Source: Branchiostoma floridae
Lineage: Eukaryota > Chordata > Leptocardii > Amphioxiformes > Branchiostomatidae
Assembly: GCF_000003815.2 (NCBI RefSeq)
Contig: NC_049983.1
Location: 1,413,999 to 1,477,998 of the forward strand
DNA: 64,000 bases
Direction of reading: 5' to 3'
In this document: one piece after another, positions 13,723 to 54,000 of the stretch
How positions within the stretch are numbered: position 1 is the stretch's first letter
How the letters are laid out: every line of letters begins with the position of its first letter
Program-made: the position numbers and the translations under genes
The notes under the pieces: model-generated
Told to the model about the DNA's origin: nothing
What the model saw: the letters and a program-made list of their open reading frames with translations, nothing else
The model's database searches: none

Positions 13723-13745
13723 TCGGGCATACCATCATCATCAAC

Positions 13746-28239: not shown

Positions 28240-31200
28240 CTTAACGAAAACAACATATAATAGTAAATTGTTAGAACTGTATCATACGATATATCTCAAG
28301 TATTTCACAAAAATCAGTCCGGTATTGCTTCAGTGTAATACGGTGTAGATAACCCACCTTTCCCTTGCTGAGCAGACGCTAGAGCTTTGGAACTGTAAGC
28401 CCTATTGGACCCATACAAGGCAATGACAATGAAGGCCAGGATGAAGTTAAAAGTTTCCACAAGGTTCCATGGCTCCTTTAGGTAGGCCAAGCCGGCTGCG
28501 CGTACAGCTTTTGCCTCTTTCCACAGCGAGTAGAAGAGAAAGATGACGTAAATGATTTCCAACAGGACGTAGATGTACCCGATTGTACCAGGCCGTTGAT
28601 GAAGTCGGAATGTGTGCAGGTGATGATTGCAGAAAACCCCGGACATCTCGGTAAATTCAAACACTACCGTCACCGAAGTGAACATATCCAAGTTTCCATT
28701 GTAGAGCAACACTTCCAAAATGACAGCCCTGGTCTGCCTGTCGATCCAACGGTTGGCCTTCAGGTCTGCTAGAATGCTGCGCATCTCGTCTGCTGATCTT
28801 CCCAGCTCCAGACTGAAGCCGTCTTTCCAATAGTGAGATTTCAGACCAAAGACGGGTTTGATGGTATAACCACTGATGCGGTAGCTCCATCCAGGTTCGT
28901 CTGGTTCAACCTCCGACATATTCGTGACCCTTTTCCATCCCTTCTGAAACACCCCGGTCTCCTTCGTGTTTTCACCATACGCTGCTGTACATTTATCGAA
29001 CAAGTCCTGCATTGTCACAGGCACTACGCACAGCTCTAGGAAGACAGGGGAGGGAAAGTGAGAGAATTAAGCTGCAAATGTACTTTGGTTTTTGTCAGTC
29101 CGCTACTTGTTACAAAAGTTGGAAACACTGATACAGAATCGACAAATTTCGAGACTATTCAGACGTCCGTTGATGTTTACTTTATAGTATTAATGGTTCC
29201 ACCAACCTGACTTTACTCGGGCTTGGATCAGGCTAGGTGGGGAGACCAGGACCGACTGCATGTCGGCTGTGAAGACGACCTCCTGCCAGCGGGGCTTGTC
29301 GTCATTGTAGGAAGTCTCCGGGTAGAAGCTCTTCAGAGCGGTCTCGTCCAGCCATGACCAAACGCCAGTGGGGTCTGCTACCTTTCAAATGATAAAATAT
29401 TGGATATAAGCATATTCTAAAATCATAATGTATGATACACAAATGATGCAGCTAGAAAATGCCCAGGACTATTTCCATTTTATATCAAAAGCTTGGGTTT
29501 GGGAAGTTAGCACGTCGCATCGCATATGTTAACTGTTATTGTACTATTAAGTAGTTGTTACGTTTCATGACGCTGATGACAAAATTAGTGTTTTCCAACG
29601 CAACGTTTTGAAAAAGTCAATGATCTGTTTACCTCGTCTATAGACTGCACGAAGTTTTCTGCTGCGCTCTGTGTCTGATAGAAGGCCGTGTTGGTGCTGT
29701 GGTGTCCATTAACGATGGTCAGAGCAAGCAGGAGGCGAGCAAGAGAAATGATGATATCCCAAAGTAGGTTTCCGATTCTCCTATCTCTCTTTCTCTTTCG
29801 TCGCGCTTCGTTAATGTTTGTAAAAGACATCTGAGAAAGTCTTTCCATTTTCTTCTTTACCCGGAATCGGCCACCTATGTTGGACGTCAACATACAATTA
29901 AATCAGTAAGCCGCATGGCAATAGAACAGAAAACCACACACCAAGTGGAACAGTAGAAGTATCAATTTGTTATTCAAGCGTAGCAAATCCTAACTGCAAG
30001 ATGAGTGTCACGGTTTTTAAGATCGGGGATTTTTTATCACTTACTATCAAATCCTTCCTGCTCTTGTGACGTCACAGTCGTGATTTCCAAGAAAACTTTG
30101 TCCTCTTCATTTTCAAAAATCATCTTCAAGGTATGTCTTTGGAAAACGGATGAAAAGATGATCGCCAGAACCAAGATCTGTAACATCAAATATTGAACAC
30201 TGACCATATTGGTCATGTACAACACGATCTAGAGAGGTTATACAACCATTAGTATTGTGCAATTCTGTGCAAACATTTTATTGGAGTTCGGCGCTCAATG
30301 CTTATAGGTCAATTGACAAAAATAACATGTCTTAATCTCAAACGTTTATAATAACATGGAAAACCGATGTATACAGCAGTGCATTTAATTTGCTTCTGTT
30401 TCAAATGAATCAGCTTTTAAAACAGCAAAGCATGGCAAGATATGTCGTCACCTTCACTGGTTGCAGAAGAAAGATGTCCGCCAGAAAAGTGGCGAAGAAC
30501 GCAGACAGCCACCTCTCGGACTTGTCCTTGCCCCACTCCAGACTGTACAGCACGGTGAAGACAGCTGACCCCACGGCAGACAGCACCACAAGCACCCAGG
30601 CCAGGTACTTGCACCAATGTGGCAGGCCCTTGACTGGCTCTTGCTGCGTGTGTGCCACAGCTGCGCCGGCTGTCTCCACGTCCTTGACCCTACGACCACC
30701 CTTGCTTTTCGGTCGGCTGTACTGGAACAGCACAATGATGGCCATGACGACGGGAAGGCAGGTGATGCTGGTCATGATTCCCGTGTAAACTGTGTTCAAG
30801 GTGAAGGAGAACGGTCCCAGGCTGACGGCCTGCACAACTTGGGTTGCGTTTTTATCGCTCAACCACATGGCGCTGGCCACCATGGACAAGGTGAGGAAAC
30901 TCAGGCAGCAGCCTAGCCTCTCGCTGCGGGTGAACTTGCTTCCTGTAATAGAACAGTTTCCGGTAAAATGCATGCATAAGTAAAAGTAGAATTTGATCAA
31001 AACTCTATCTTTTGTACTTTATTTGTGGAAACATAAAAGTTTTGAAGATAATTATAAACACTCGACGCAGGGAAGAACTATATGTTCGTTTCCTTGCGTA
31101 ATGATGTACTAACTGGCAGTGGACCTTCAGTTATGGATGCAACTTGTGATCAATTGCACCGCAGCCAATGGATGGTGATTATTAGTGTTCTAATCATCAT

Positions 31201-34200
31201 TATAATTAGAAGTCAAAATGGATACGAATTCCCAGATATATTTTCATTAGATGGGGTTACTCTTCTGACCTGCAGTCACCTCTTCATTCCAACATGTAAT
31301 AATCATTTTCAATTGTACCACAAATGTATATAATATGTAGTAAATATACACGTTTGGCAATTATTACCTTTAGGCATAATAACGACAGACAAGAAGAGAT
31401 GCTCCTCTACCAGATTGTTCCACAGACTTGCCAAAAACAGGAAGCCGAAGGATCGCAGGTCCTGCTCAGTGGCGACAGGAAAGGTCTTCACCACCTGTCC
31501 GTCCCCGCGGTCGGCTGCCAGCCACTCATCGCAGAAGAAATAGGACCTTTAGTTCCGAGATTTAATAACAAAACCACTGAGTTTGATTCAATGTTCTAAG
31601 ATCCATACTTAACCTTACAGTTTGACAAAGGTCAGAAATAGATATTGTTTAAATCTGGCGAAGTAAGAAACCGAGTCTTTCTAAAGTTTCATTAGGACGT
31701 AAGGTTTATTATTATTCATATCATTCTGCAAGATGTCCAAACTGAACTTTTGACATCATCCGTCTGAATTGCCTACGTGTCTGTTTCCCGCCAGGATCGA
31801 AAACGATATATCTTCTAAATATCCAAATTAACTTTATTACAACAGTAAGTATATACAATCATCTGTATTTCCTTTCTTTATCTTGCACTTTACAATTAGA
31901 TTGACAAATCTAGACAGCCTAAAAACTCACAGTTTTCCTGTGGTGAGATCCTGCACTGCTGCTCTGTCCACGTTCCAGGATGCACGGCTCCCCTCCCCAC
32001 TGTTGTCGTGCATGAGCTGCAGCAGCTCCACGTTACCCAGCTGTTCTGCTGTGCTGAAGTTGAGCGTCACCTGGCTGCCTTGGGTGAAAACCTAAATAGC
32101 AACAAGCATTCGACCTGTTAGGATCTACTCAAAAACATTCTTGAAGAAGAAAATGGACGCTAGTAAATTTGATGCCTGACCTTCTCCGTCATGCTGACCA
32201 CTCTCACTCCGGAGGTAGCTTCATCTCCACACAGGTTGAAGGAAACGGTGGACTCCGTCCCAGCATGCTTAGTGGTGCTTGTCCAAAGGTGGAGGCGGTA
32301 CCGGAAATCGTTCTGCATGTCATCCAGTTTTATGGAAGTGTTTTTCTGTAATGATGCATGGAGAATTGAAACATTTAGAAAATAGGTAAAGAGTTTAAAA
32401 GAAACCAAAAGACAAAATCCCAAGCTATTCATGACATTGTGTATGATACCTACGTACCTTCCTTTTTAATCTGAGGTCAATAACCTTCATTATGACCAAC
32501 GTGAGCAGAAAGACGCAGTCCACCACGAAGATGGTTGTCAACACCGCGCCGTTGTCACGTAAATCTCTGAGCGTTAAGGCTCCGAAGTCCACTCTGTCCG
32601 GTGGTGTGGCGAAGTCACTTCCGAATGCCGTCAGATGGTTGCAGTGACAGATGATGTTGTTAATTGTTGACCGATTGCTAATCTGAAGAATTAACAGAAA
32701 TGTTACAGTCTTGTCGATAAAACCGACTTATTCATATTCGAATACTTTTTTCCATGTTTAAATTGTTAGATTAGCAAAATGTTAGCCTGATAAATTGTAT
32801 GTCATTTAAATTTTCTACGATTGGAAAAAATTGCTTTATATCGGTACTTCAATGGCAATTGCTCCGATGGCCTCATGCTCCATCCTTTGAAAGCTTTACA
32901 CGTAGTCACAACGTCACATGATATTCAATTATCGGCTTAAAAGTCCTTTAACAGCAACAATTTCTTTTCCTTACTGCCAAACTTTGAAGCGCCCTCGATG
33001 ACAACTGTTACCATATTGTACACAGTCATTCAGCCTTCAAAACCAATATTCATCGCTATCAGCTTGCCACTTTATCTTACAATGGTTTTGCTTTGAACAA
33101 ACTCTTTTGGTTTTAGTAGTAGATAATTTAAGCAACAATCAATACTGGTTAAGCAATGTAGCAGGTCATATTAGATCGGTAATAAGGTTTTGCACACCAC
33201 ACAGCCTTCTGATCTCCAGGCGTCCTCTGTCTCGCTCCAGAAGACGCAGCTCAGCCGGGCCCACTGGATCTGGTAGGCGTAGAAGGAATTTGCGAGTACC
33301 CTATTTTCATCCATTGGATCATTGACGTCACACTCGGTTGCAGGTCCTGAAGAAAAGAAGACTTCAAAATAAACATACGTGATTGCATTTAAGTACTCAA
33401 TCCGACTCATGTGATACAGTACGTACACTTTCGATGATCGTAGAGCCTATAACAGTACCAATTAAAACATAAAGGCACTACAGAAGGAAGCGATATAAAT
33501 ACAGTTCCATCAGTCTGTCAAACGTTTGGTTCCCAAATCGTGTGTTTATGTTGATCATGAATTCACTTTCATTGATTTAATTTGGTACAAAAAGAATTGA
33601 ATATTTGAGAGAGACGGGGATGGGAAAGTTTTGGCATTTGAGCGATTGTCGGACGTTTAGGTTTAGGTTTGTTTCTGCTAAATAATGTAAGACCTTTTTA
33701 TTGACTTAGAAGTAAATGTTCTTGCAACTGAAAATGAAGCCAAAGGCTGTTTTCTATATTGGTCAATACCCGTTGCATATTTATTCGTTGCTTCAAATCA
33801 TAAAAAAATGATTGTGGAGGCTTTAAGATATGTTTTGGTTTTATTGATGAATTTGAAACAAAGTAGCTTACCTAGAATTTGGACTTTGACGTAGTAATCT
33901 ACTGGATCTTTAACACCTTTGATGAAAATTCTTGCCCCCGTCTTGGCTTCTCCATCCCCACGCAGAGTTTCTATCAGGGAACATTCCTCGGGAAGAACGT
34001 ACGTCTCCATTGACACGTTGCAGTTTTGATCATCAGGGCGGCCGCCGTACCTGCCCCACACGCCGTACACCACGCTTGTGTTCAGCGGGGTGATCGTGAC
34101 CAGGAAGGCTTCTGCGGTGTTGTTGAGGTTCAGCAAATGATAGGCCGAACTTCGATTTCCAGGAAGAGGGTAAGTGATGATTTTTGTCGCTGGTTTGTTT

Positions 34201-37200: not shown

Positions 37201-40200
37201 CGCCTAGAACAGCAGAAACATCAGCGATGACTATGCCATGCAAAACTCAACAGACCGTCCCCTTCGGTCAACAACAAAGAAACTACGGCTCTTAGGCAAA
37301 ATATGTGTTATTCGTTTGCTGCCCTGAAAACAGAAAAGTTTTAGTACGTAGGAATCTCGGCCGGAGCGATGCAACAAATGCAGTTTAGCAATGTAAAGAC
37401 AAGATACATTAGGCACTAATATTTTCAACATAATAAAGTAATCCTACTGATATACATGTACATTGTACAAGCACAAGAAATGTTTACTATAGATATTTAA
37501 AAGCCCTCAAATCATCCAACAAAGTGAGAAACAGAATTGTTTTTGAATTTCGTCACTCGTATGTCTGAACGAAAATCTGATGTCCTTGGCCAGTGACACA
37601 TCATAAAGGTATAGGATCGACAGACTTTTGCTAGAGTCGGAAATGCTACATTTTCCCCAGTCATCAGTATAGCATACCTTTGACTTTTCATCGGCAGCTG
37701 ATGCCGGCTGCTCCAAACCAACAGCGCCGTCATCGTCAAGGGCAATGTCCTGATTTGTAGAAAAATGTTTATTTTACAAAAAACACAATGAAATATTCTC
37801 AACCAAGAACAAATATACATTATGGAATATTGATGCCCTGCTATTTTTTCACATGAAAGATTATAACGTTTGCCATCAACTAATAATTGCATGCCTGCTT
37901 ATATAATTGTAAGGGCTTTGAATTCAATCAAAAACCAATCCTTGTAATTGTTAAACTTCCAGATCTTTAGAGGTACAAAATAAAGGTAAGTCGCAATGAT
38001 AATAGTATTCATATCTACTTGAACTTGTCTTACACGATGACAATTTTAATGGCACCAGTGGAAAAAACACGTGTCCACATGTACAGTAGTGACTAACCTG
38101 CGCCAGCCTCTGGAGCACGTCCTGTGGAGTTAGGGAGAAGGCGTCTGCGTAGATGTTGTCTAGACTATTGTCTGGGACCTAGTTATCAGAAGGCATCCAT
38201 TTATCTTTACAAACTAGAACTGTGAGTGTTGACTACATTTTTTGTCTTCATTGTACAAGTTTCAGTACACTAAAGATAAGTTGTTCTTTTATAAGAAGAT
38301 TTTAGAATTGAAGTTAGCAATAGCCATGGTCTTTCAAAGTAGCCAACATAAATATGCTTGCCACGAAGTGAGAAACATTGACAGTACGGACCTGATACCT
38401 TGGCGTTGTCCAACTGCCTCCTGGTGAGATCGTGCTGGATTGCTTGATTTCTGCACAACAACAACAAAAAACACAAACAAAATAATCCCATTGCCAGTAA
38501 TGTATAGCCTTCGTTCACAGCAAAGGCCTCGCTTTTTAGTATTAGAACCGTTACTCTACTGACAAAAATCATACATGCAGCAATGCTTGTCACATGTTCT
38601 CACAACGCAAACATTCCATTACCCTCTCTAGTTGCTCTTTTAGTGAACGTATCTTCATCGGATCGTTCGCCATCCGATTGGTTGTCTTCCGATTTGTCGT
38701 AATCTGATTGGTCAGCATCCGATTGGTCGCTATCCGACTGGTCGTTACCTAGAAAAGAATCAGTAACATGCATCAAATACGCGCGTCTAATGTGAAGAAA
38801 CAATATCACAGCCTTCATGATTTGTCTGACACGAAATATAGACCTTCCTGCATGGCACAGCTTAATAGTTTCCCGTTTGGCAATGACTTACCGAAATTGT
38901 CCTGTTCGCGGGTCGAAGTAGATTCTCGTGTCTTTGCTGCTGTAGTTAAAGTCAGTAGGCCGGAGAAAAGCGAGGTCATCAGGCTGTTTTGGGTGGTTAA
39001 AGCCGTTGTTTTGCTGGTTGAAGCAGCAGGCATTGTTGTTGATATCACTGCGGCGGCAGACAGCAGAAGTTTAGTAAATACTGCGTATCATTGTTCTGTT
39101 AATCACACAAAAAAAAGACATTATGACGTAGACAATGATCTAAGCTATTGGAATCTTCTCGGTCTTTTTCCAGCATTACAGTTGCACCATGTACTCACTG
39201 GTCGTGTGATACCCGACTAGAGGTGCACTCTCCCGCTGAACTCCAATAGTGATGATCTCCACCTTGTACATGGAGTCAGCCTGAAGCCCACGGATGACGG
39301 CGGATCTATCTCCTGGACCCGGGGAGGGGTTGAACTGTTCTGTCGCCTCCCTCTGTCCGTACATGATGCGGTATCCGGTAACGACCGCATCAGGAGGCAC
39401 CCAGGTGAACCGCAGCTCTGACTCGGTCACGTCTACGAACTGTAGGTCTGTAGAAGAGCTCATCTCTGAAAATATGCAAAGTTACTCTTCAATTCGTATT
39501 TCAGAAAAGAAATTTGCATTGTTTTTCTTTTCCTGGTCTTTTGCAGCTTTGCTTTTCTGCAGGGTACATTTTAATGTCTAAAATGTTGAAATGTAATGAA
39601 AACGGCAATAGTTGTTCCGCCCTTTCCATTCAAAATTCAAAATCAGTACCTATTTGAGTTCTGGCAGTTTATTGCCCATTATGATTTGTTACTACGTCCT
39701 TCCTACCTGTGGATAAATGTATAACTGACGTATCGCTCTGTGACCTCCAACCATCCGTCAGGAACAGCGAGGTCACACTGATGACGTAATCCGAATCTGG
39801 TGACAAATCCGACACCAGAAATGGTGACTGATCCGTGTTTTGATTGACAGCTGTTGTCATGTCTAGCTTCGACACCACAACGCGGTATCCATGAAGGTCA
39901 GAGGATGGAGACCACGTGATCTTAAACCCTTTATACGTGACGTCAGAAACGGCCAGGTTGATTGGCGGCTCCACAGCTGTTGGGCAGAAAGATGAGAAAA
40001 ACACAATGAATATAGATAGTATTGTTTTTTGTTTTTAATATCGGCTACTCTCGTTTGGTTTTATTCTCCCAACACATGACAATAGATCACAAAACGTTTT
40101 GCGGTTATAACCAAAGAAATTAAAGTATCCTACAAATAAAGCCATTGAATATTTTCTCTACCTACGTGACAGCATAACAACTCAGTTCACTCAATATTCA

Positions 40201-42238
40201 CCATGGTTCGTATCGTGCTAGGAAATGTAGATAGATGGTATTCAAAAAGTTTCTTTCTTAGCAAAAACAAAATACCCTCGTTGCAAAGCCGTGTTTTCCA
40301 TCCATCCTGACAACCAGCCAAGCAGACACCCGTCATACGGTCACAGTTGATGACTCCGCCCTCGCAGTGCCCGCACACTTAGCGTTAAAAGAGTAAACGA
40401 CACCATCTTTCATTATAAAAGGTTTGCCACCTTTTGAAATGTTTATATTAGGTCTTAGCCCTCGCTACAAAACCAAAGTTTTCAGGTTTTTATCTATAGC
40501 TATTGTTTCTGAAGCTGTAGATTTCGTATACCAAAATGAAACAGCTAAAGTCAATAGCCAGGATTGAGACTTCTGTTGACGCGTCCTACATCTGGCAAAA
40601 AATATGATCCTCTTGGATAGTGCCTAATAAGTACCCAGTATTCATTACATTTCCGGTTGTTCGTTGTCTTTGTCTTTATCCACCCAATGCAAAACATCTG
40701 ACATAACCGCGAGAAATATCTGGATTGCGATGTAATAGATTCTCACCTCCACAACCGTGGGCATCTGCCATTAGTACAAAACCCTGTCGACAGAAGCATC
40801 TGTAGCTGCCTGGGACATTGGTGCAAATGTGGTCACACCAGCCGTTCACTATCGCACATTCGTCGGACTCTATGAAGTAAACAAGGTGGAAGTAAAGGTT
40901 ACAAAAAAAAAAAAACGGAGAAAAACATTACAATTGGAAAGTCTTCAGAGTAGCTAAATAACACGGAGACTACCAACATATAGTTTTGCATTCACCTGTC
41001 GCATTATGCCCGGCCAGTGGTAGGCTTTCCCGTCGACGGCCGATGGTGATGATTTCCACCTTGTACATGGAGTCAGCCTGAAGCCCACGGATGACGGCGG
41101 ATCTATCTCCTGGACCCGGGGAGGGGATGAGCTGTTCGGTCGCCTCCCCCTGTCCATACATGATGCGATATCGGGTCACGACCGCATCAGGAGGCATCCA
41201 GGTGAACCTCAGCATGGACGTCGTCTCGGTTACTTGAACGAACCCCAGGTCTGTAGAGGAGCTCATTGCTGAAAAATGCAAGGTCAAAATTATAAATCCA
41301 TGCTTGAACAATTATGTGAGGGATTTAGTCTCATACTGGCCTTATCTAGAAGAAGAAGAAGCCTTACTCCAGGACCAGAAAAAGCCAATTCCACAGTCTC
41401 ATCTGTTTAACTGTGGCTACTACCAACTGCATCACTAAATCTATTGTATTGCAAAGCTATGAAGGACTAACCACACGATTGTTCACCAAAATTGATAAAA
41501 CAACAAAAAATCACTCCTTACTTGTGGTTGCTCCGGTTGTTGCCACATTGCTCTGTGACCAGAGACCATCGGACAGGACCAACACCCTCACACTGATGAT
41601 GTAATCAGTTTCCAATGCCAGTCCTTCCACCTGAAGCCATGTCTGAGCCGTACTCTGATTGACAGCTGTCGTCATGTCTAGCTTGGACACCAAGACGCGG
41701 TATCCCTGAAGGTCAGGGTCAGGGGATGGGAGCCAGGTGACCTTGAACCCTTCATTCGTGATGTCAGAGACGGTCAGATTCACTGGCGGATCAACAGCTG
41801 CAGGAGGATCAATTTAAAATGATACGATATGGTGATCAAGGCCACACAACAGCTTTGCGAAATCTTAAAAAAAATATATTGTTCAACAGTCCAACATTCT
41901 TAACAGTGCAAGTTGCATGAACAACCTGCAAATATGAGACTCATGAACATAACACATCTCTTCCCTTCGTTAAACGGACTTAGAATCTAATGATGAACAT
42001 TGCAAGCAATCATAGTCAATTCAAAACATACTCTGTTTGCAACTTCGTGTTTTCCATCCATCCTGACACCCAGCCGAGCAGACAACCGACACCGGGTCAC
42101 AGTTGATGTCGCCGCCCTGACAGTGGCCGCAATCTGAAAAATAAAATAACGCGATATGAACACAGTGAGTTAAGGTTAAGGCCATTTTTCTATTATTACC
42201 TTAGCTTTGTTAACCCTTTCTTCATTCGAAAAAAAATA

Positions 42239-42281
<43 letters not shown>

Positions 42282-45200
42282 TTTGAATCGATATACTTTT
42301 TTTTTCATACCAAGAGCTGTACAGGGCTTACATTAGCTTAGCATACAATCTATGTTTCATCTTTGGGATAAGCTACATCGAAGAATTCTTTATAATGTGA
42401 GCAGACACCAAAGTTAGGGCTGTTTATAAGAAAGTATTGTTTAAATACCCTAAAAGAAGGCTTCAAAAAGTACTAACCATATTTAAATCTTAAAATACTT
42501 TTTCACCAGAAAGTCGCGTGGTTGTAGTTCATAACCATTAAAATAAAACGGGGTTGTTCGGCTCTATCTACGAGAAAAGCTTTCTCTATGCAAGAAACCT
42601 CATCTTTGACCCCGGCTACCGCCTGATTCAACCCGTAGCACCCAACAGCTCAACTCTCTGAAGTGGCAAGTCATGAGTGTTGGATACCCAATGTTCTAAG
42701 ATAGCCCCATATACCTACCTTGTGTACCGACACACACGGTATACACAATCCTCTCAGCTGAACTTGTGCCCGCGTGAATCGCTGTTGTGTTGGACAGAGC
42801 ATGGTTATCGTATATCTGACGTTGGCAGTTATCGACGGAACAGGCATCAAAGCCGAAAAACCTTGCACCGCTGTACAAAGGCTCAAAAGCCTGCCTCACC
42901 ACCGCCTCTACCCCAGCGGCCGGGGGGCACCCGAGCACGTTGTTGATGTGGGGGTCGGAGTTGTACTCATCAGCGCACCTGGAAACACGACAGCGATATT
43001 CTGATATCAAATCCAATGTTCAAAATTAAATTACCTAGATATTGCAAGGACTGAAAATTTTTAATTCGAATTTTAGATTTTGGGATGCCTCCCTAATATT
43101 GCAAACCGCGTGTATATACGTGCATTGCAGACGGTGTTGAACACATTCATAGTATTGTTTCGCTACCCCAGGGCTGTAAATTCTCTACCCCAGACTGTTT
43201 TATCTGATCCGTATGCTGTATCTACATTTTATTACAAATGCCCCGAAGTTTGTTTGATGTGCAAGCAACATGTCTAGTTCCACAAAATAGCACAGCTGGA
43301 ATAGTTTTATATAAAATATAAAGAAGCGTACTGGTAAACGTTGTCTCCAGCTCATTCATCCAAATTATCTATTTGCCACCGGTGTCTGAGTGAACCTCAT
43401 GATAGGAGGAATTTGATTATGGTATACATGTATAAAACATAGATCTGTGGCAGACAATAATAAGAATGACAATGTCTTGAATGATAGTCAAATGCTCAAT
43501 TATGAATTTTGAAAGTTTTCTTTTTATGTATATTTTATGTATATTTTATTTTTTTGCAAATTCATGCCCGGAGGCTAATTGCAAGAGTACAGACAGTAAA
43601 CAAGTGTCTATTCTATACAGCTATCTTATGATTCTACATTCTTTACTGGGAGTTTTTACTTCTTCTTTGGAGGCAGTGGCTGAAATTACCACATTTTTAA
43701 TGATTGGTGGGTTCTGTGATTTTAAAAGAAATGTAGTTGTATTTTTTTTGGGGGGGGGGGTGCTACTAGCTGGTGAAAGGTTGTAAATATTGTCTTGAAT
43801 ATTAGTAGCTTACGGCTGATTAAAAGGCTATGGGACTAACTAACTAACACTCCAGGTCAGAATGCAAGTGAAATAACAGCACGTAATTTGGCTATTGACG
43901 TTTCATGCAATGGATCGTACCGGATATGCTCAAGTGTGCTGGAACTGCCACCATTCACTACCCAGTCCTCCCCACAGCCGGTCGTTTTGAGTCCGAACTC
44001 TGCGCACAGATTTTGGTAGTCCCTGCACCAGCTTTCCGAGGCGGACCTCCCATCGTCAGGAATCCGAGCCTCAATGACGACAAAGTCGACTCCTTGATAC
44101 TGCTGGCTTGTATTTCGGAGGACCTCGAATGCATGGCTCTCTGTTGAGATTATGGCAAAAGAAAAGTGATGCAGGCTCCCTCTATCTTTTCAAATAGCGT
44201 CGTTATCGGTCATGTGCTGCGATTATATGTTAGGGTGGATGGTGCAAGTGGGTGGAGTTGGTGGATGGTGCAAGTGGGTGGTTCGGGTAAATGGTGTGAG
44301 TGGATGGTGTTGGTGGGAGGTGTTGATGCGTGGTTCGGGTGGTTTGTACAAGTGGATGGTGTTGGTGAATGGTAAAAGTGTGTGGTTCGGGTGGATGGTG
44401 TGAGTGGATGGTGTGGGTCGGTGGTGTTGGTGCGTGGTTCGAAAGAATGGTATAAATTGACAGTGTGTGTGGATCCGGGTGGGTAGGCCAAGTGGATAGT
44501 GTGGGTTTGTGTTTGGTTCGGTTGGACAGTGCACGTGGAGCTTGTGGGCTTGTGTTACGGGTGATCATGGGTACCGTAGATCGCTCTTACGTCTTAAAGT
44601 GGTCTATTCTGAACCCTTGTATGTAACGTTAGATAATTAAGACACTTGCCTTCCCTTCCTCTGCACACGGTGTAAACAAGTCTACTGCCGCTTCCATCAA
44701 AGGTATAGTGCACAGTACTATGATTACTAGCTGATATATCACGTTTGCAGTAGTCAAAGGGGCAGTTCCGAAAGCCGAAACTCATGTTCGGTGTAACCGA
44801 GACAGAAAAAGCCGAGCTCGCCAGACCAGCGATGTCGGTGTATGGGTCACAGCCGAGCGCGTTGTCGATGTAGGGGTCGGAGTTGTAATGAACCATGCAC
44901 CTGATGAGAACACATAAACGATTATTTACACAAATGACTGCCTGCAACCTATCGCTATAAAATCTGCTAGTCACAAAAATACAAAGAAGGTTTAAATTAG
45001 TAGTCAGAGGACGAGAGTTTCTTAGTGACCTGGTCTTTACAGGTTAAGAACATGTCAGAATGCTGAATAATCTCCAAAGGGGATTTTCGTAAGGAAATGT
45101 ATGCATCAAAACCGACAAGGCCCTTAAGGTATCTCTGTAAAAATCTTGTCATGGAGGCGGAAGCAGGGCAGCTTGAAGAGTTTATCGAATATCACATAGC

Positions 45201-48200
45201 CGATGATAGAACTTTCATTTCATTACCATATTACGTATATAGTCCAATGACACTTATGACCAATGACTGCCACACTTTCTTATAGTAATTATTTACAGCC
45301 TAGCTCAGATCACTTGACGTGTTTTATTCGCAGCGTGCACGTGTCACACATCCTACATCATTGCATTCCTGTTGAAGTTTAGCCCTGTCTAGACTGCATA
45401 GTCCTCCCCACAGCCCGTGGGTCTAAGCCCGTAGTCCGCGCACAGGAACTTGTACTCCATACACCAGGTGACAAAGTTAGACAGGCCGTCAGCCGGCAGC
45501 CGCGCCTCGATGACCAAGAAGTCGATTCCGTTATAGTCCTGGATATTAGTCCTCAGGACTTCAAGGGCGGTGGGTCCAGCTGAGAGAGGGGAATTTACGG
45601 TAGTATCAGCACGAGTCTTTATTCGCTCTTTGCCGCCAATGGGCCATAGCAACGTAACATAGACATACACTCAACAAAACAATGAAATCATAAATAATTA
45701 GACACAAGTTACAAATGAAATCAATAAACCAAAGCGACCAGTTGTAAATGGAACTTAAAATGAAATGAAATGATATGAAAAAAATATGATCCATATAAGG
45801 GCAGAACCCAAATCATAGGTATATTAATGTACAAGTTTATGAACAAAAGTGAAATCATAAAACTTTGCAATGACATGATCTTAAGTGGAACATACAACAA
45901 TCATTTCAAATGAATAAATAAATCAGCAATACACCGTAACAATGTAAGGCTAGGATTAAGGCAAGATGATGACTCGTGGCGATGGCCAAGAAGGCCAAGA
46001 TGGCAGAATGGCCTTGCCTTTATGATTGCTACTGTGAATCTTACGGTTCTGGCTTTAAAATAATAAACATCTGGCGTATTTTGCCAGCCAGTAGGTACCC
46101 AATGTGTTGAGTAATGAGGCTGTTTAACGTGGTCGAGGCACCTCCTCGAGCAAGGGACCCCCGTTTTACGTCCCCTAGCAGGGTAGCTGCAAATTATTTG
46201 GCCCAGAACCCAGACAGCTTTGGTTCAAATTCTCTCATGTCACTGTGCTTTGGGCTCTTATGTGATGTAAAATGAGACCTCGATTCGGCTGGGAAGGTAA
46301 AAGGCGGAGGAAGAAATACCGTGCACTAGACACAGTGAATGGCAATCAGCTACCGACACTGCCTCAAAAAGGTTTGGGGACTACCTTAACGATCTGGTTG
46401 TTATGTCTGGCATTTTTATTACCGACTTGAGTAAGCCAATTGCAAATTATCATTTTCTGCCTTAATAAAGCAAGTAAATACCTCTACAAAATGACAATCA
46501 GCCTGCAGTTAAGGATTATTGTCATGATTTCAGTATTCGTGCTTTATCTTATCTGACATAGGCGTTGAAAGCAGTTTGGCATTTAAAAAACTCTGAAACA
46601 AATTTCAAACACTCTTTTTTTGGCGAATATGCAAAACAGTAAATCACTCCACATTCATCGACTAGTTCATCTCTCCAAGAGACCACCCGGCCTGATTACT
46701 GGAAGTAAATAATAACTTAAGCTCAATAAAGTCATTATATCATTGCAACGGGACGGCTTTTCTGAGGATGCCAGGTATCTAAGCAAGTCCCAAACGACTT
46801 TACGATGGACCACATGAAGAAAGGTTACAATGATGGCAAAAATGTAGCTTAGAATGTAACTGCTATGAGCTGGTAATAAGAGAAAAGTTAAAAATGTGTG
46901 TGTCGTTCCAGAAAATAATGGCCCTCTGCTAAAGTCCAAACACAAATTCCCCATCTTAAGAAGAATGGTAGAACAGTCTCCTACCTTCACAGCTACGTCC
47001 GTTAGGCTGTAACACGAAGCCAGTTTGACAGGTACACGTACTCTGACCGTCCCAGAAATGCTGGCAGCCGCCATTACCTGTTGGGAGTACAAACCACAGT
47101 TAGGTAACGGTTACGACTGAACAGGAAATGACGCAACAATCAAGAGGGCTTGTTTTTTTAGTGGGAGCAAGTAAGGAGGCAGCAACAAAGAATTCTTCTA
47201 TTGGAGAAATTTATACATTTTAGGAAAAAAAGGAGCAAACTCAAAATAAAAATCCCACAATGCTTGTCATCACTGACAATTAGATAAAAATATTGCCATG
47301 GCGACTGTTGTTGTTATTATTTTCCATTTTACTGCACCATCGCAGTGCCTATGGCACTTAAAGTTCAGACGGGGTTTCTAATAAAGTTGTCAGGGGATTA
47401 CATGTTCTGTCGGAGACATACATGTTATACAATTGGGAAATTTTATGCAATCATTTGTCAATGCAAAAATCATTCCTTCTTATTTGCATAATTGATGTTC
47501 AATGATGCTCACTTAATCATAACTTCCAATTGCCACCAGTAAGAAATTCCTGCCATTTACCAGAGTATGATTATAACGTTTTCTGATTTATTATGCAAAT
47601 TGGATCGTTTTTGTATAATGTTTATTTATCAATATTCTTCTCATACCAATGTGAGATGTTGCAACAGAGTCCCGTTATGGAACAGAGTGGGTTTAAACAA
47701 TTTCCTCAATATTTATGCAAGCTAGACCTCAATTTGCATAATCATTATATAACTATATGTAGCATTGTTTAAGCCATCTACATACCAAAAATCATAACCA
47801 TCCGTCAACCCCAATTTCCTTCCAAAGTCTCAGCAAAACACTAAACCGGTCCCTGCAGTTTCAAAACAATGCGCTAGTTCCTTACTCTTTGCCACTTACC
47901 AAACCTACATCTCTAACTCTTCATTGCAATAACCAATGGGGCGTTTGATCGATGAAACATATTCCGTAGAGTAAACCCAGAGGAGTAAGCCCGTATCGAT
48001 AGTTTCATCAGGTTCTACTCCGTTACCCAACCGTTTTTAATTCTTCTGCAGACGTTTCATTATGCACTGAGGAAGGCGGCAGTCGTTGAAACGTCTGTAG
48101 AAAACTAAAAGACGGTTACGTAACGACAAAGAATATATTCAAGTGAGAGTAGTAAGAGGACCCGGATACTCACTGTGAGCTAATGAGCCTTTACACACGG

Positions 48201-49944
48201 TGTATACATCATGGTCTTCCTTCCCCGGCCAGGCGTGTCTTGTGTTGTAGAGACCGTACTCACTGTTGGATATGTTTCGACGACAGTAATTGTCTTCGTC
48301 GGTACAGGTGTAAAAGCCGAAACTCCGCGCAGAGTTCCGCACAGAGAAAGCCGACCTCGCAATCTCGCTAACAGCTTCGGAAGGGGGGCAACCAATCGCG
48401 CCACTGATGTACGGGTCGGAGTTGTATTCAGTCACACAACTGGAGACACAAAGACGCTGAAAATATGGCTACTCTTATATGGAATTAGGGCAGATGTCAA
48501 GACAGTTCACAGGACGAGTCGCAGGAAAGATTGAAGAACAGATCGCAGGAAAGATTGAAGGACAGATCTCAGGACAGATTGCAGGACAGATTGCAGGGCA
48601 GATTGCAGGGCAGATTGCAGGAAAAATTGAAGGACAGATCGCAAGATAATTCACAGAAGAGATCGGAGGATAAATCACAGGGCACATTGCAGGTCAGATC
48701 GCAGGTCAGATCGCAGGACAGATCACAGGTCAGATTGCAGGATAGATCGGGGGACAGATCGCAGGAAAGATCATAGGACAGATCGATAGGTAGATCAAAC
48801 GAAAGATCGCAGGACAAATCACAGGGAAATCGTAAGACAGATCATGAGACAGATCCTGCAGGACAGATCGCAGGACAAGTCGCAGGGCAGATCACAGAAA
48901 AGATCGCAGGACAGATCGCAGGACAGATCACAGGACAGGTCGCAGGTTCGTCAGATCGCAGAAAAGATCGCAGGACAAATCGCAGGACAGATCGCAAGAC
49001 AGAGCGCACGACATATTGCAGGGTAGCATGTACTATAGATTCGACTGGTGATAGATCCAACCTGACTTTGCCAGGATCGCTGTTTGACTCTCCGTCGACT
49101 GCATAGTCCTCTCCGCAGCCGGTAGGGCGGAGTCCAAACCCTTCACAAAGGTCCGGCACCAGTTCTCTGAGGCCGACAAACCGTCAGCCGGCAGCCGCGC
49201 ATGGATGGCGAAGAAGTCCACCCCAAGGTACCGCTGGTTTGCAGTACGCACGACTTGGAAAGCGTGAAGTCCAGCTGAGAACAAGGAGCACTATAATCAC
49301 GCTTATGATACGATGGAGACATTGATTATAAGTCCCAAAGCAAAGCCATTCAAACAGACGCAATTGTTAAATGTAGAAAAAAAAACTACATTGTGGTCTT
49401 AAGGAAATAACATCTGTCTGTATAGTCAATAAGCACTTCAATCTGACAATCACAAATGATTACTAACCTCGTTTTCGCTAACTTTTACATACTAATAGCA
49501 GTAGGGAACTAGACCCATTCGCTTGCAATGTGCAACTATAAACAACAACATCAATGGGGATTGAGTTGAAGATATGTCTATGATTCGTTACGCGTTCATG
49601 CGAACAAGTCTAGAATTGCTTCATTACTATCTCAAACAAACAGGTAATTAATTGATCACTGCTTTTCTAATACCCCTGTCCCGAACCGCTTGGTTTGTTC
49701 GTGATTCATACATTATAGTAAAAATTACATTCAACGATCATTTAGATACGGAAAACCCCTACCCAAACAGCCTTTTCTCTGAGATGGTCAAAATGTGTCT
49801 ACATGTTGAAAAAGCGAATCGCTGAAAGGCAAAACTTGCGTCTGCTTCCATGTTGGTGCTTCTATGACGTAACGTGACAAAGATGTGCTCGCAACCAGAA
49901 ATTAAAGAAAAAACAAAAACAAGACTTACCAGCTGCAGTTGGAG
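27356..49944 (-). CDS. Polycystin-1-like multi-exon receptor/channel gene (38 exons read, ~2,580 codons)
   Basis: Minus-strand exons, each with GT-AG borders (one GC-AG), join in compatible phases from 49944 down to 27356. From N to C the protein has three Cys two-exon modules with an EGF-like domain, two Cys module-FN3-FN3 blocks around a Ca-binding EGF, Ser/Thr and acidic linkers, a GAIN-like region, GPS (CHCNHLTAFGSDF), TM1, PLAT, TM2-5, TM6, the extracellular TOP domain, and TM7-11 with a pore (FDYTEL), then a coiled coil. This is the polycystin-1 order, without the LRR, PKD and REJ arrays of vertebrate PKD1. Family members are cleaved at GPS and pair with PKD2-type subunits. The start exon and signal peptide are not found, and the final exon is uncertain. 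Two lesions occur in the 5' modules (see 49062-49274 and 45389-45579). Confidence 0.85.
28358..29381 (-). CDS. Polycystin-like gene: TOP (polycystin/mucolipin) domain to TM8
   Basis: Exons 29207-29381 and 28358-29035. The TOP domain shows GVWSWLDETALKSFYPE, YWKDGFSLELG and LKANRWIDRQTRAVILEVLL, then YNGNLDMFTSV. Membrane segments IYVLLEIIYVIFLFYSLW and NFILAFIVIALYG follow. This is the polycystin cation channel core. Confidence 0.88.
29633..30177 (-). CDS. Polycystin-like gene: cytosolic loop and TM6
   Basis: Exons 30045-30177 (ILVLAIIFSSVFQRH) and 29633-29874 (basic RRKRKRDRR, then LLWDIIISLARLLLALTIV). Phases 0,1,0 agree. Confidence 0.82.
30452..30942 (-). CDS. Polycystin-like gene: TM2-TM5 exon
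   Basis: It encodes FTRSERLGCCLSFLTLSMVA, AMW, then TSITCLPVVMAIIVLF, a charged loop, LAWVLVVLSAVGSAVF and FLADIFLLQPVK. The RLxCCLS and AMW signatures are characteristic of the family. Confidence 0.88.
31368..32345 (-). CDS. Polycystin-like gene: PLAT/LH2 domain
   Basis: Exons 32181-32345, 31931-32091 and 31368-31546. YRLHLWTSTTKHAGTESTVS opens the PLAT domain, VTLNFSTAEQLGNVELLQL continues it, and SYFFCDEWLAADRGDG closes it. PLAT is the cytosolic lipid/protein-binding domain after TM1 in polycystin-1 proteins. Confidence 0.88.
32458..33346 (-). CDS. Polycystin-like gene: GPS proteolysis site and first TM
   Basis: Exons 33198-33346 and 32458-32682. The first carries LSCVFWSETEDAW and EGC, and the second CHCNHLTAFGSDF. 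Together they form a complete GPS motif with the HL/T autoproteolysis site. TM1 (VLTTIFVVDCVFLLTLVIM) follows directly. Cleavage here is expected from the family. Confidence 0.88.
33872..34358 (-). CDS. Polycystin-like gene: GAIN-like beta region exon
   Basis: A 487-nt exon (phase 0 to 1) encoding YQQNPYTWELGQYQ, MELTIQRKNYKPL, DFIITIPGN and VYGVWGRYGGRP, with CNVSMETYVLPEEC. Several N-glycosylation sequons (NNLT, NRSS, NNTA, NTSV, NVSM) indicate an extracellular location. Confidence 0.78.
34486..34894. mobile_element. hAT-like MITE in a polycystin intron, perfect target duplication
   Basis: TAGCCTGGTTACCA at the left and TGGTATCCAGGCTA at the right are near-perfect inverted ends. Both are flanked by CAAACACCC (34477-34485 and 34895-34903). 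An 8-bp duplication fits hAT; reading it as 9 bp would fit Mutator-like elements. There is no transposase in the 409 bp. Confidence 0.85.
35369..37749 (-). CDS. Polycystin-like gene: REJ/GAIN-like N-terminal exons
   Basis: Exons 37678-37749, 37066-37203, 36847-36937, 36040-36197 and 35369-35611. They encode helical segments such as VQIISELSSLVIKACPGI, LDILESITRKLGKLD, ALVASVATLLQ and VLDDLSNAITDPM, then VTIKRSGVTLKAQKI. This helix-rich stretch before beta strands is how the region upstream of GPS looks in polycystin-1 proteins. Phases agree throughout. Confidence 0.72.
38098..39047 (-). CDS. Polycystin-like gene: linker exons (Ser/Thr-rich, acidic, helical)
   Basis: Four exons. 38892-39047 is Ser/Thr-rich and probably O-glycosylated (PAASTSKTTALTTQ). 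38623-38748 is built from DQSD-type acidic repeats. 38399-38442 gives IQHDLTRRQLDNAK. 38098-38178 gives DNIYADAFSLTPQDVLQRL. Phases run 1,1,0,0 without a break. The 38442 acceptor was chosen over an upstream AG because only it keeps the frame. This is the stalk between FN3 domains and the GAIN-like region. Confidence 0.65.
39199..39465 (-). CDS. Polycystin-like gene: FN3 domain, block 2 second
   Basis: LQFVDVTESELRFTW, YRIMYGQREA and MYKVEIITIG. Phase 1-1, 267 nt. Confidence 0.82.
39707..39976 (-). CDS. Polycystin-like gene: FN3 domain, block 2 first
   Basis: PPINLAVSDVTYKGFKITW, GYRVVVSKLDMTTAVNQ and SDYVISVTSL. Phase 1-1, 270 nt. Paralogue of 41522-41797. Confidence 0.82.
40276..40377 (-). 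CDS. Polycystin-like gene: short Cys exon, block 2
   Basis: CGHCEGGVINCD, CLAGCQDGWKT and LC: same length and cysteine spacing as the block 1 exon at 42032-42133. Confidence 0.75.
40747..40869 (-). CDS. Polycystin-like gene: Ca-binding EGF domain
   Basis: It encodes DECAIVNGWCDHICTNVPGS, then YRCFCRQGF and GCG: a calcium-binding EGF with six cysteines. The 123-nt phase 1-1 exon separates the two FN3 blocks. Confidence 0.82.
40996..41268 (-). CDS. Polycystin-like gene: FN3 domain, block 1 second
   Basis: FN3 signature: LGFVQVTETTSMLRFTW, YRIMYGQGEA and MYKVEIITIG. Phase 1-1, 273 nt. It is very similar to the 39199-39465 domain, down to GPGDRSAVIRGLQADS. Confidence 0.82.
41522..41797 (-). CDS. 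Polycystin-like gene: FN3 domain, block 1 first
   Basis: Fibronectin type III fold signature: PPVNLTVSDITNEGFKVTW, GYRVLVSKLD and TDYIISVRVL. Phase 1-1, 276 nt. Confidence 0.82.
42032..42133 (-). CDS. Polycystin-like gene: short Cys exon, block 1
   Basis: A 102-nt phase 1-1 exon encoding CGHCQGGDINCD, CSAGCQDGWKT and SC: a small six-cysteine, EGF/laminin-like unit. Its paralogue is at 40276-40377. Confidence 0.75.
42243..42281. repeat. (TA)n microsatellite
   Basis: About 18 TA units in an intron of the polycystin-like gene. Confidence 0.9.
42719..42978 (-). CDS. Polycystin-like gene: module 3b
   Basis: Intact 260-nt exon: CADEYNSDPHINNVLGC, FFGFDAC and RIVYTVC. It ends in phase 1 and joins the 42133 exon in frame, which ties the modules to the FN3 part of the gene. 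Confidence 0.78.
43080..43770 (+). mobile_element. LINE 3' remnant inside a polycystin intron
   Basis: The 43100-43270 frame contains FRYPRAVNSLPQTVL, resembling the conserved C-terminus of non-LTR reverse transcriptases. At 43550 a 3'-UTR-like segment follows that matches 14335-14560. No catalytic domain remains. Confidence 0.5.
43921..44140 (-). CDS. Polycystin-like gene: module 3a
   Basis: Intact 220-nt exon: VDFVVIEARIPDDG, SWCRDYQNLCAEFGL and TTGCGEDW. It is the reference copy for the module. The donor ATCCG/GTACGA (phase 2) joins 3b to give an Arg-Cys junction. Confidence 0.78.
44225..44545. repeat. GT-rich minisatellite
   Basis: Degenerate ~15-bp units of the type GTGGATGGTGTGAGTG and GTGGTTCGG fill the intron between modules 2b and 3a. 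Long minus-strand Thr/His/Pro ORFs here are by-products of the repeat. Confidence 0.85.
44650..44900 (-). CDS. Polycystin-like gene: module 2b (GC-AG donor)
   Basis: It encodes HYNSDPYIDNALGC, MSFGFRNC and RLVYTVC. By alignment with 1b and 3b the donor is GGGAAG/GCAAGTG, a GC-AG intron start matching the consensus otherwise. Phase 2 in, phase 1 out. Confidence 0.75.
45389..45579 (-). CDS. Polycystin-like gene: module 2a with in-frame stop
   Basis: It encodes GIDFLVIEARLPADGLS, WCMEYKFLCADYGLRPTGCG and EDYAV, then TAG (45391-45389). Modules 1a and 3a read on past this point to a phase 2 donor, but here I find no usable donor before the stop. Either the gene ends here and a second gene starts with 2b, or the exon carries a nonsense mutation. 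Confidence 0.7.
45800..46660. other. Intronic, possible dispersed element
   Basis: A segment at about 46120-46390 reads like a dispersed element ('GAGCAAGGGACCCCCGTTTT', then GGTTCAAATTC, which resembles a Pol III B box). I see only one copy in the window and no A box, so I do not call it a SINE or tRNA. Confidence 0.25.
46985..47077 (-). CDS. Polycystin-like gene: EGF-like exon
   Basis: A 93-nt phase 1-1 exon encoding NGGCQHFWDGQSTCTCQTGF, ending SCE: an EGF-like domain of the complement-C1r type. It sits between modules 1 and 2 and its phases join both neighbours. Confidence 0.75.
47450..47830. repeat. Second copy of the octamer-motif repeat
   Basis: ATTTGCAT/ATGCAAAT at 47482, 47593 and 47732, and the end segment 'ATAACCATCCGTCAACCCC', match the 4250-5110 family. 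Confidence 0.6.
48018..48125. repeat. Inverted repeat with CAGACGTTTCA arms
   Basis: CAGACGTTTCA (48049-48059) and TGAAACGTCTG (48087-48097) pair perfectly. The outer arms 'CGTTACCCAACCGT' and 'GACGGTTACGTAACG' extend the pairing imperfectly. It could be a fold-back element or the end of a retroelement. Confidence 0.65.
48174..48439 (-). CDS. Polycystin-like gene: module 1b
   Basis: Second exon of the module (phase 2 in, phase 1 out). Key residues are CVTEYNSDPYISGAIGC, SFGFYTC and VYTVC, with five positionally conserved cysteines shared with 2b and 3b. The domain is not recognised. Confidence 0.75.
48490..49025. repeat. 12-bp minisatellite (GCAGGACAGATC)n
   Basis: About 40 diverged tandem units in the intron between modules 1a and 1b. 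Because the unit is a multiple of 3 and lacks stops, several frames stay open on both strands. I do not regard these as coding. Confidence 0.9.
49062..49274 (-). CDS. Polycystin-like gene: module 1a, frame broken by a 10-nt deletion
   Basis: It encodes VDFFAIHARLPADGLSASENWC, then in another frame LCEGFGLRPTGCGEDYAV. Comparison with modules 2a and 3a shows 15 nt expected between WC and LC but 5 present (about 49149-49158). Borders are phase 1 acceptor and phase 2 donor (CAG/GTTGGA), as the module requires. Either an assembly error or a true disabling allele could explain it. Confidence 0.7.
49930..49944 (-). CDS. Polycystin-like gene: candidate 15-nt microexon
   Basis: The 15 bases between ATATCAG and GTAAGTC give phase 1 on both sides, so they fit before the 49274 exon and would add Ala-Pro-Thr-Ala-like residues. 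This is the most 5' exon I can propose, and no further upstream exon is recognised. Confidence 0.4.
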
Positions 49945-51049: not shown

Positions 51050-54000
51050 TTTTTGCCCCCCCCCCCCTCTTTTGTAAATACTACGATCACCCTACCCCTT
51101 CGGTTTAACATCATTCTTTCTTTGTAGCCCAAAATTACTTTTGGGGGATGCTATGTATCCTTGGTTGGTTGGTCCTTTTATTTGCACCCCTCCTGACTTC
51201 TGGCTGGTTTGGAATGTCTACAAAAGTACTGTATGGCCTTCAAATCCATTGACTGGCCTTCAGTTTAACGTCTTCTTTTTATCACTAAAAAATGGAAGGT
51301 AACGTGTCATCAATTATTTAGAGGCTTTACACAAATCTACCTTATGGTTAATTGCTCTTTTATTTGCACATCTTCTGTCTTTTTCCAATACATTTAATCA
51401 AGGACGTTATATGAGGTCTCGTATATAATGTCCTTGATTTAATGCAAGACTTAACCTTTTGTACATCAAACAATAGTTTTTATATAGTGAGGTTTTAATG
51501 GGAAAGGGAGTTAATGGGAAAGGGGAAAGGGGGTAATGACTAGAGAAATTATGAAGTATCAAAAGGTTTCAAAAAGGCTATCCTCTAGGCAAGGTGTTTT
51601 AGTTTGTGGAAACAGGTACACATGGCGTTCGCCTAAAGAAGTGTATAGGGCATATACATTTACTGCCTTCTACTACTGAAGTTCTAGTCTCGCATATTGC
51701 AGTGGATCATCTTTGCAAGGGGTCTGGAAGTTGGAACTGCAATTTCTAAGGTGGACTACCGATTACATCATTATCATCATCACCGCGTTTCGGTGGTCCT
51801 TCATCGACTTCCATAGTTGTTGTTTTTTATTCGATGCTGTCCGCTGAACCGCCTTCTAACTTCTTCCAATCATAATCAGTTCTCACACGACTACCCCGCT
51901 ACACAGTTATTTCCCTAGTTAGGCTTAGGTCACATTTCCAAAGTGGGGCCCGGCCGGGCAGCTTTCAGGAGCGAAAAGAATGATATACAATAGATCAAAA
52001 TGCACAAAATGCCAAAATAAGATTCATTGGCATGATTTGTGTATATTTCTAGGTATACGTTTTAACTTTTCGTTTCGCTGCTTTGAAAATGTGACCTAAG
52101 CTAGCTTACTAGATTAAAGATGCACAGATGTGGCACCAGACGACTGCATGTGTGCACGCAAATATCAAATAGGGGAAAAAAAATATATTGCCTACTCATG
52201 ACAATCAGCAGCCAACAGGCGATCCCAGCGGAGACCAATCTGCTCCTCGTTGCCCGGCGGTCCCGTCCGGCCATGGTTAGCCCGTCTCTGCAAGTGACGC
52301 CCAAATCGTCTGGTTTTCGGTCTTAAACATCGTGTCCTTGGACAGGTGTCCAGGTGGACCTGTTGCCTAGCGAGTGTTATGTTTGCCATGTTTCCATGGT
52401 GATTACCATGGATACACCGCGGCCGTGCGGTAGTAATGTCTGTGCAGATGACCCCGAGACTGTCACATATGGTCTGCACAGAAAAACATCGTGTCCTTGG
52501 TTGGGTGTGGTCACCTGTTACATAGCGAGAGCTATTTTTGCCACGTTTCCATGGTTACTGCCATGGTTACCAAACGTTGATACAAACATTCCAACTGAAT
52601 AGATTACATTTCTAATATATCCGTGTCCTTGTCTGGTCACCTTTGAAGTTTGTTTGCATCCAAGTTAAGCTATTTACCAATTCTCCCTGTGGTTCTTGGT
52701 ATACTTACTTACTTGATACTTGGTTAGGTATATAATTCTTGGTATATAATACATTAATGCAAAATCACATTGAAGACAGGACCGGGTGAAAAAAAACAAC
52801 AGTAGTTGTTTTCCGTTCATAAAGAGTAGCCTTTGTGTCTTTCACGAGTAGGACTAATACCCTCTTTCCACTAGGACGGTGTTCTTGCTGCACTCTCTCT
52901 TCGACCTAAAATTTGACAGATCGCTCAACGAACTGCAGAGAAAAGAAACTAATATTTTTACACTTCGTGTGTTTTGTTGTCATCTCAGTCATATTTTTAT
53001 GTTTTGTATAATTTACGTATATGGTATACCCGGTGTGAAAGCGAAGGTTAAACAGACAGAAGTTAGTGAATGCTACATGAAACGTCTGACCGGTACCAGT
53101 TGCTTGCGAGACTGTAATTTTATGTTATCTCTGCCACATTAGCTTTAAGCTCACACTTTAATATTTCACATGATCCTTTTCTACATGCATGCAGACGCAC
53201 AAAGCGTCATGAAATATGCATCCACCCACACACCCACAAATATGTACTGTTGAAGGCCTCCCCGTTCTAACCACGTAAACACACGCACGGCAACTCACGC
53301 CTATCTACAAGTAGATGGGGGAATGATGACTACATATTCATCCACAACTGACGAGTTAAATTCAAAAGCAGGTGTATTTTGCAGTCAGTTATTTTTTAAC
53401 ACAACAGGTGCTACGCCATACGTACGCAATTAGCGTCAAACTTGTCTTGTCTTATCTATGTTTCCTTTGGACTATTTAAAATCTGTATTCACGTCATTTG
53501 CATATGGAACCATTAATGAAAATCCTCCATCACATGATACCACCACATATGATGTAGAGTAATATTTTCCAAACAGTAAGTTTGTCACGAGAATATTGCA
53601 GGACATGTGGCTTATCCGGCAGTTCTGTACACCGTTGGTGTGAACTGCGGGGATGCTGCTCTGATCCTTCATCCTATAATTCAGGTTTGGCCTCGACACA
53701 TTATGGACTTTGGTGTTTGTTCAGTGGAGGTGGGCGATTACTATTATAATATTTGTGCTTAGGCTGTTGATGTTTATAGTTCATTTGATTTCCTCTTTTT
53801 ACACGCATTGGCGAGCCTAAGAGTTACTTGTGTTGTGTAAAAAATTACCTTTGCATGCCCAACACACAAGACATCAAAACATACTGCAATTCCATGGAAG
53901 GCTGTTACTTAAAAAAAAACTATGTAAGACACATTTTTTAAATCAAATCTTGTGTACAATCGCGTCCTTTACGAACGAATGACATTAACGGACTATAGGT

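Follow-up and report, generated by a model that had tools for sequence, protein, structure and literature searches.

An unnamed eight-cysteine module, repeated three times, upstream of polycystin-1-type exons in the lancelet Branchiostoma floridae

EGF, SRCR and CTLD are examples of extracellular cysteine-rich domains that have spread by exon shuffling. In polycystin-type receptors the ectodomain is a varied part of the protein: a sea urchin report describes REJ/PKD1-like ectodomains that vary and include C-type lectin, EGF, SUEL and WSC domains (PMC1934368). A soluble N-terminal fragment of PC-1 activates the PC-1/PC-2 channel, according to another study (PMC7728438). For the lancelet egg coat, a third report gives vWA plus ZP in BbZP2-5 and a TM in BbZP1 (PMC3543715). 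Here we describe a B. floridae locus in which three exon pairs encode a real multi-copy extracellular domain; its identity as a domain is well supported, and it carries no name.

The window, that is, the whole stretch of DNA analysed, spans 64 kb (C5:1413999-1477998; G+C 41.6%). An earlier note on this stretch had proposed that three pairs of exons, each with a part a and a part b, encode the same module. All six exons were verified at the coordinates claimed; they lie on the minus strand and have acceptors, and the three pairs correspond to one domain of ~155 residues with eight cysteines. The module exons, and a half-EGF exon lying among them, are as follows, with one 3' end corrected.

49062..49274, minus strand: module 1 exon a; 10-nt deletion, frameshift
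48174..48439, minus strand: module 1 exon b; frame open
46985..47077, minus strand: half-EGF exon between modules 1 and 2; phase 1-1; cEGF 7e-5
45357..45579, minus strand: module 2 exon a; 3' end corrected; in-frame TAG at 45389-45391
44650..44900, minus strand: module 2 exon b; frame open; GC donor
43921..44140, minus strand: module 3 exon a; intact
42719..42978, minus strand: module 3 exon b; intact

The homology of the three copies, as claimed, lies far above chance. In blastp between complete halves, 2a and 3a matched at E=4e-26, and the b halves at 9e-21 (1b-2b), 4e-20 (1b-3b) and 8e-19 (2b-3b); when module queries were run against the window, the next-best match beyond the copies had an E of 0.096. 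Other details of the earlier description needed revision. Exon 1a is 10 nt short relative to three aligned paralogous exons, which shifts its frame; the WCxxYxxLC motif ascribed to part a is therefore absent in frame from copy 1a, and 1a spliced to 1b reaches a stop codon almost immediately. The end given for 2a, position 45389, turned out to be the final G of an in-frame TAG that is absent from three aligned paralogous 2a exons. A homologous donor lies 32 nt further on (AT/gtagga), which rules out a 2a exon without any donor; with the donor placed at 45357, 2a agrees with 1a and 3a in its phases and in its length beyond GCGEDY. Exon 2b has a GC donor (AAG/gcaagt, 44649-44650), i.e. a GC-AG intron. 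With these corrections the fixed phases of the earlier note hold, with exon a entering in phase 1 and exiting in phase 2 and exon b entering in phase 2 and exiting in phase 1, 1a being an exception only for its deletion.

Module 3 is the only intact copy among the window's three, and with the other two broken the gene or haplotype may yield a shorter protein or none. The whole exon chain, when spliced, breaks in 1a. Leaving out module 1 or module 2 does not alter the frame; without module 1, or without both, the frame runs on to the end of the fourth FN3, interrupted by the TAG if module 2 is kept. The half-EGF exon is part of the repeated pattern, since it sits at the same place in six paralogous loci; its cEGF match reaches 23 bits against a curated cut-off of 26.6. 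NG86 dS between the window copies is ~0.7-1.7 where it can be computed, and no a/b intron matches that of another pair, so the duplications within the gene are old and a recent duplication of the modules within it is ruled out. Two ~20-base matches (E=0.09) were seen between intron 2 and a stretch upstream of 1a. Tandem repeats are present in the 1a-1b intron (48510-49022; units of 12, 24 and 36 nt) and between 2b and 3a (44229-44441; units of 52 and 104 nt).

The module is by no means restricted to the window gene. We searched the B. floridae assembly (513,431,437 bases, 431 contigs) with exon 2b as the query and obtained 81 b-half matches at E<=1, 80 of which have no internal stop; 75 of them have E<1e-5, and these are spread over 11 contigs and include the three of the window. 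Clusters lie on C5 at 26.29-26.51 and 27.38 Mb, on C19 at 6.39-6.68 Mb and on C13 at 13.7-21.9 Mb; other copies sit on C9, C4, C12, C7, C15 and small contigs. In 20 genomic stretches the halves follow one another on a single strand as a, b, a, b, with few exceptions: L034 ends in an a that lacks its b, one b is split in two in L033, and L045 and L050 begin with b halves. The exact order a-b-EGF-a-b-a-b recurs in five of eight paralogous C5 loci (L031, L032, L033, L037, L038). L034 shows this order without the last b, the overlapping L006 containing 486 N, and L035 and L036 show a-b-a-b. These last two (C5:26.439-26.4465 and 26.475-26.4815 Mb) are 94-99% identical in aligned blocks and represent either a recent duplication or unmerged haplotypes.

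We rebuilt 55 a+b modules from paralogous loci, one more pair dropping out at this step, and added window module 3; 51 of the 56 were kept by length. The rebuilding imposes the a/b intron phase, and the phase in the other loci is therefore not independent. Mean pairwise identity among the 51 modules is 57%. Each of the eight cysteine columns holds Cys in 43 to 51 of them, and 42 modules have all eight. C55 in exon a and C90 in exon b are both lost in seven modules, while C90 alone is lost in one and C55 alone in none (Fisher p 7e-8, uncorrected for relatedness). The seven co-losses fall in module types 1 and 2 and in five genes; in the two type-1 cases exon a ends earlier, and the loss of C55 depends on the donor chosen. 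C74 and C119 are both lost in one module of the 51. Paired loss is the behaviour of disulfide partners. Since the C55-C90 pair spans the intron and is lost together, the two exon halves most likely form one domain, as far as the sequences tell; by elimination, C38 and C45 should then pair with C124 and C155. AlphaFold models of the separate halves were poor (pLDDT 44 and 60). Between the cysteines, variability reaches 1.8-2.1 bits per column in C55-C74, C90-C119 and C124-C155, versus 0.5 in C38-C45.

As the earlier note had supposed, the module corresponds to no named domain in the Pfam, NCBIfam or PDB-sequence libraries, and the Pfam match that the note had said would speak against its proposal was looked for, with none credible found. 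Four Pfam-A (2025) families matched, each with only 1 of 22 members (best E 0.005), and pieces of the window gave one weak Pfam match, at 11.9 bits against a cut-off of 27. NCBIfam, searched with one protein, returned no match. Among PDB sequences no chain matched the joined module and none matched the 22-row profile at E<=10; half-profiles gave nothing credible, with a best E of 0.87 (a) and 1.3 (b). PHROGs likewise offered nothing credible (one family, one member, E 0.09), no relative was confirmed among prokaryotic and viral contigs, and a phage tblastn produced a single match at E=2. Whether searched as single copies or as profiles, the module thus found no credible known-domain identity in Pfam, NCBIfam, PHROGs or PDB sequences. 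Among the open-licence papers listed by literature searches, no title or abstract start describes it, which is weak evidence.

Around the modules, the minus strand of the window carries the following features.

52196..52274, minus strand: putative first exon with signal peptide MAGRDRRATRSRLVSAGIACWLLIVM; exit phase 1
42032..42133, minus strand: small Cys-rich exon (CGHC..), copy 1; phase 1-1
41522..41797, minus strand: fibronectin type III domain 1; PF00041 1.2e-10
40996..41268, minus strand: fibronectin type III domain 2; PF00041 8.5e-9
40747..40869, minus strand: calcium-binding EGF domain; PF07645 1.7e-7, PF14670 4e-11
40276..40377, minus strand: small Cys-rich exon, copy 2
39707..39976, minus strand: fibronectin type III domain 3; PF00041 1.4e-9
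39199..39465, minus strand: fibronectin type III domain 4; PF00041 7e-12
33174..33446, minus strand: open frame with first half of GPS (autoproteolysis) motif; PF01825 5e-4, 20.9 bits
32428..32727, minus strand: open frame with second GPS half and hydrophobic stretch; PF01825 1.4e-3, 19.5 bits
31930..32091, minus strand: PLAT domain fragment; PF01477 3e-3, 18.6 bits
28317..29066, minus strand: open frame with polycystin domain and channel start; PF20519 2.7e-25, PF08016 1.8e-5
27528..28240, minus strand: open frames with polycystin cation channel; PF08016 1e-7 and 1e-9

The PF20519 and PF08016 matches supply the polycystin (TOP) domain and PKD channel that mark a PKD1-like protein. GPS is represented by two partial matches in separate open frames, both under the cut-off of 22.5 bits when taken exon by exon, and PLAT by one open frame under its cut-off of 23 at the position expected. 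Scanning 20 selected proteins and frames, which took in only part of the frames at 34-39 kb, brought up neither a REJ domain nor PKD repeats. The exon order is putative signal peptide, modules with half-EGF, CGHC, FN3, FN3, EGF, CGHC, FN3, FN3, and a Thr-rich stretch (by reading) lies between the fourth FN3 and the GPS. Module, half-EGF, CGHC, FN3 and EGF exons of the window have phase 1 at both borders, and the phase-1 exon chain runs without a break from module 3 to the end of the fourth FN3. CGHC-FN3-FN3 occurs as a block twice (42133-40996 and 40377-39199), and the EGF exon separates the two copies.

A scan of 33-54 kb found two signal-peptide candidates on the minus strand, at 52274 and 46954, and none on the plus strand. 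The second (MGNLCLDFSRGPLF..) has a phase-1 donor, lies between modules 1 and 2 and scores higher for hydrophobicity than the first. We prefer the start at 52274 because a copy of its exon, 92% identical (24/26 aa), is conserved upstream of a paralogous gene, gene B (L051:7223). Neither candidate falls between 3b and 33 kb, the lower end of the scan. Past the 5' end of the gene, frames of C2H2 zinc-finger arrays, with tandem repeats, occupy 54610-56148 and 60046-62208 on opposite strands (by eye). Elsewhere in the window, reading by eye picked out repeated open frames of BTB/kelch-like tandem genes on the plus strand (7460-25139), a 391-aa minus-strand frame resembling an Ulp1-type protease with a PHD-like end (25608-26783) and reverse-transcriptase-like fragments on the minus strand (12236-13112). 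Four near-identical open frames lie at 19009-22694 with spacings of ~986, 981 and 1488 bases, in tandem units of ~1-1.5 kb.

The partners of the module at other loci are known from genomic neighbourhood. At gene E (C5 ~26.42-26.44 Mb, minus strand), modules 2 and 3 and EGF are accompanied by a CGHC1 exon (L035:147) that is 94% identical to that of the window over 33 aa. On the same strand and in the same order come GAIN1 (84% identical to the window), GAIN2 (81-86%, its match containing a frame break), the two GPS halves (L052; 75% over 57 aa and 85%), PLAT (L052; 96%), TM frames (83-87%) and the polycystin domain (78% over 238 aa, E ~1e-127), while the first channel exon is covered for 18 residues at the end of the stretch. 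Gene E was read as two stretches, with ~8 kb between them outside the comparison. At this paralogous locus, 25 Mb from the window, modules thus lie upstream of GAIN/GPS/PLAT/polycystin exons with order and strand alike.

Other loci have other company. Gene A (C5 26.287-26.307 Mb, gapless) carries three modules, EGF and, by eye, at least 11 EGF-type open frames on the same strand, two of which, tested in Pfam, matched EGF_3 at ~1e-7; no credible polycystin part occurs up to the next signal-peptide exon (best E 0.02, opposite strand). At the C9 locus, two modules are followed by a Thr-rich phase-1 exon and a vWA exon entering in phase 1 (vWA 1e-13), then by ZP-N (2e-8), ZP-C (9e-16) and a hydrophobic segment (by eye). 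The intron between the Thr-rich and vWA exons holds reverse-transcriptase-like sequence (L016:2080-2560; by eye). Placement of the module on a polycystin, as proposed in the earlier note, is supported by two loci where it lies upstream of polycystin-1-type exons, yet it also lies beside an EGF array and vWA-ZP exons, and these loci argue for a shuffled domain rather than a polycystin invention. Equal border phases in the window and varied partners by neighbourhood are the marks of an exon-shuffled mobile domain. Lancelet multidomain gene models are described as often wrong and prone to chimeras in PMC4967905, and we therefore based the polycystin link on two loci of the same order. From the sequences, we read the module as a lineage-expanded, shuffled domain that would head a PKD1-like receptor-channel in a binding role.

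We estimated omega for the module exons with a codon model on C5 paralogs (6-8 sequences per exon). Exon 3b gave 1.14, 1b 0.73, 2b 0.70, 2a and 1a 0.69, and 3a 0.37, constrained like the half-EGF exon at 0.36. The NG86 bootstrap interval of 3b (0.67-1.70) includes 1, and the intervals of all module exons except 3b overlap that of the half-EGF exon (0.08-0.50), so relaxed constraint is possible and positive selection on 3b is suggestive only. The omega values, together with the variability between cysteines, fit a fixed scaffold whose binding surfaces diversify, most of all in 3b.

Several other explanations have to be weighed. The modules might be part of another gene, secreted or of the EGF-array type, their joining to a polycystin being a gene-model chimera. 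Gene A, with modules and no polycystin part, would suit such an arrangement, as would the chimera-prone lancelet models reported in PMC4967905; the unbroken phase-1 chain, the same neighbours and order at gene E with polycystin exons downstream on the same strand, and the position of both signal-peptide candidates of the 33-54 kb scan outside the interval from 3b to 33 kb all argue the other way, and we consider a chimera unlikely. A stronger contender, which we would still place somewhat below an even chance, is that the gene of the window represents a decaying paralog or null haplotype, with working copies elsewhere, e.g. genes E and A. The 10-nt deletion in 1a and the TAG in 2a, neither present in the three paralogous exons aligned to each, point in that direction. 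On the other hand, open frames persist in the b exons, in module 3 and in those polycystin frames that were used, NG86 dN/dS between the window and gene E is 0.13-0.48 in nine matched stretches of the polycystin part, and modules 1 and 2 are each skippable; the GAIN2 match of gene E is also frame-broken, which means that the window copy is not alone in showing lesions or assembly errors.

Many small Cys-rich folds diverge past HMM detection, and the module could be a divergent member of a known family that sequence profiles fail to see. The poor AlphaFold models of the halves leave room for such an identity, whereas the Pfam search on 22 members (four families, one member each) and the empty or weak profile results against PDB chains weigh against it, and we regard it as doubtful. 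Similarly tentative is an immune function, i.e. microbe binding at ciliated or mucosal surfaces, in place of gamete or cell recognition. Lancelets are known for expanded families of immune recognition, and the large tandem expansion and elevated dN/dS fit either function, but the PKD1-like channel and the vWA-ZP neighbours resemble gamete proteins, namely sea urchin REJ (PMC1934368) and lancelet egg-coat vWFA-ZP proteins (PMC3543715).

We therefore favour, at a probability of roughly 0.55, an autonomous eight-cysteine domain, carried as a phase-1/phase-1 unit, that makes up the N-terminal head of a PKD1-like receptor-channel; its ligand binding and its part in gating are what we infer from this architecture, as are joined transcripts, the disulfide pairing and control of the channel. 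The window protein would comprise a signal peptide, modules with half-EGF, a Cys-rich/FN3/EGF stalk, GAIN-GPS, PLAT, a membrane part, the polycystin domain and the channel. A disulfide-locked scaffold may present variable loops to an extracellular ligand, be it a gamete coat, a cell surface or a microbe. Ligand binding or pulling on the head might then act on the channel via the autoproteolysed GPS/GAIN region, much as the N terminus of vertebrate polycystin-1 does. An extracellular recognition unit, as the earlier note had it, is a reasonable inference, and the occurrence of the module in polycystin-type, EGF-rich and egg-coat-type genes suggests that it is probably an interchangeable binding head. 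It is highly improbable, though conceivable, that one fast-changing domain family heads both sperm-type PKD1/REJ-like channels and egg-coat-type vWA-ZP proteins, with module-module contact triggering calcium entry.

An undescribed, much-duplicated domain at the tip of a polycystin-1-type channel would provide a handle on ectodomain ligands and channel opening. With its co-lost cysteines and intact copies it offers a compact domain for recombinant tests, and through its vWA-ZP neighbourhood a role in gamete recognition can be tested in an animal near the chordate base. Compared with polycystin-1 and PKD1-like proteins, including sea urchin REJ (PMC1934368), the window gene is alike in its polycystin domain and channel and in belonging to a group with varied N-terminal ectodomains; its partial matches below cut-off would place GPS before the first membrane segment and PLAT after it, as in that family. 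It differs in its head, an unnamed eight-cysteine module with FN3 and EGF exons, and in that the window frames scanned, a non-exhaustive set, yielded neither a REJ domain nor PKD repeats. The C9 locus, with its two modules, resembles BbZP2-5 in vWA plus ZP and BbZP1 in TM; the passages of PMC3543715 on those proteins name LDLa, vWFA and ZP, say that EGF is absent and leave the module unmentioned. From the exon-shuffled Cys-rich domains the module differs in being split by a phase-2 intron and in lacking a credible Pfam match, but it shares with them the symmetrical phase-1 unit, tandem duplication and mixing with EGF, FN3, vWA and ZP.
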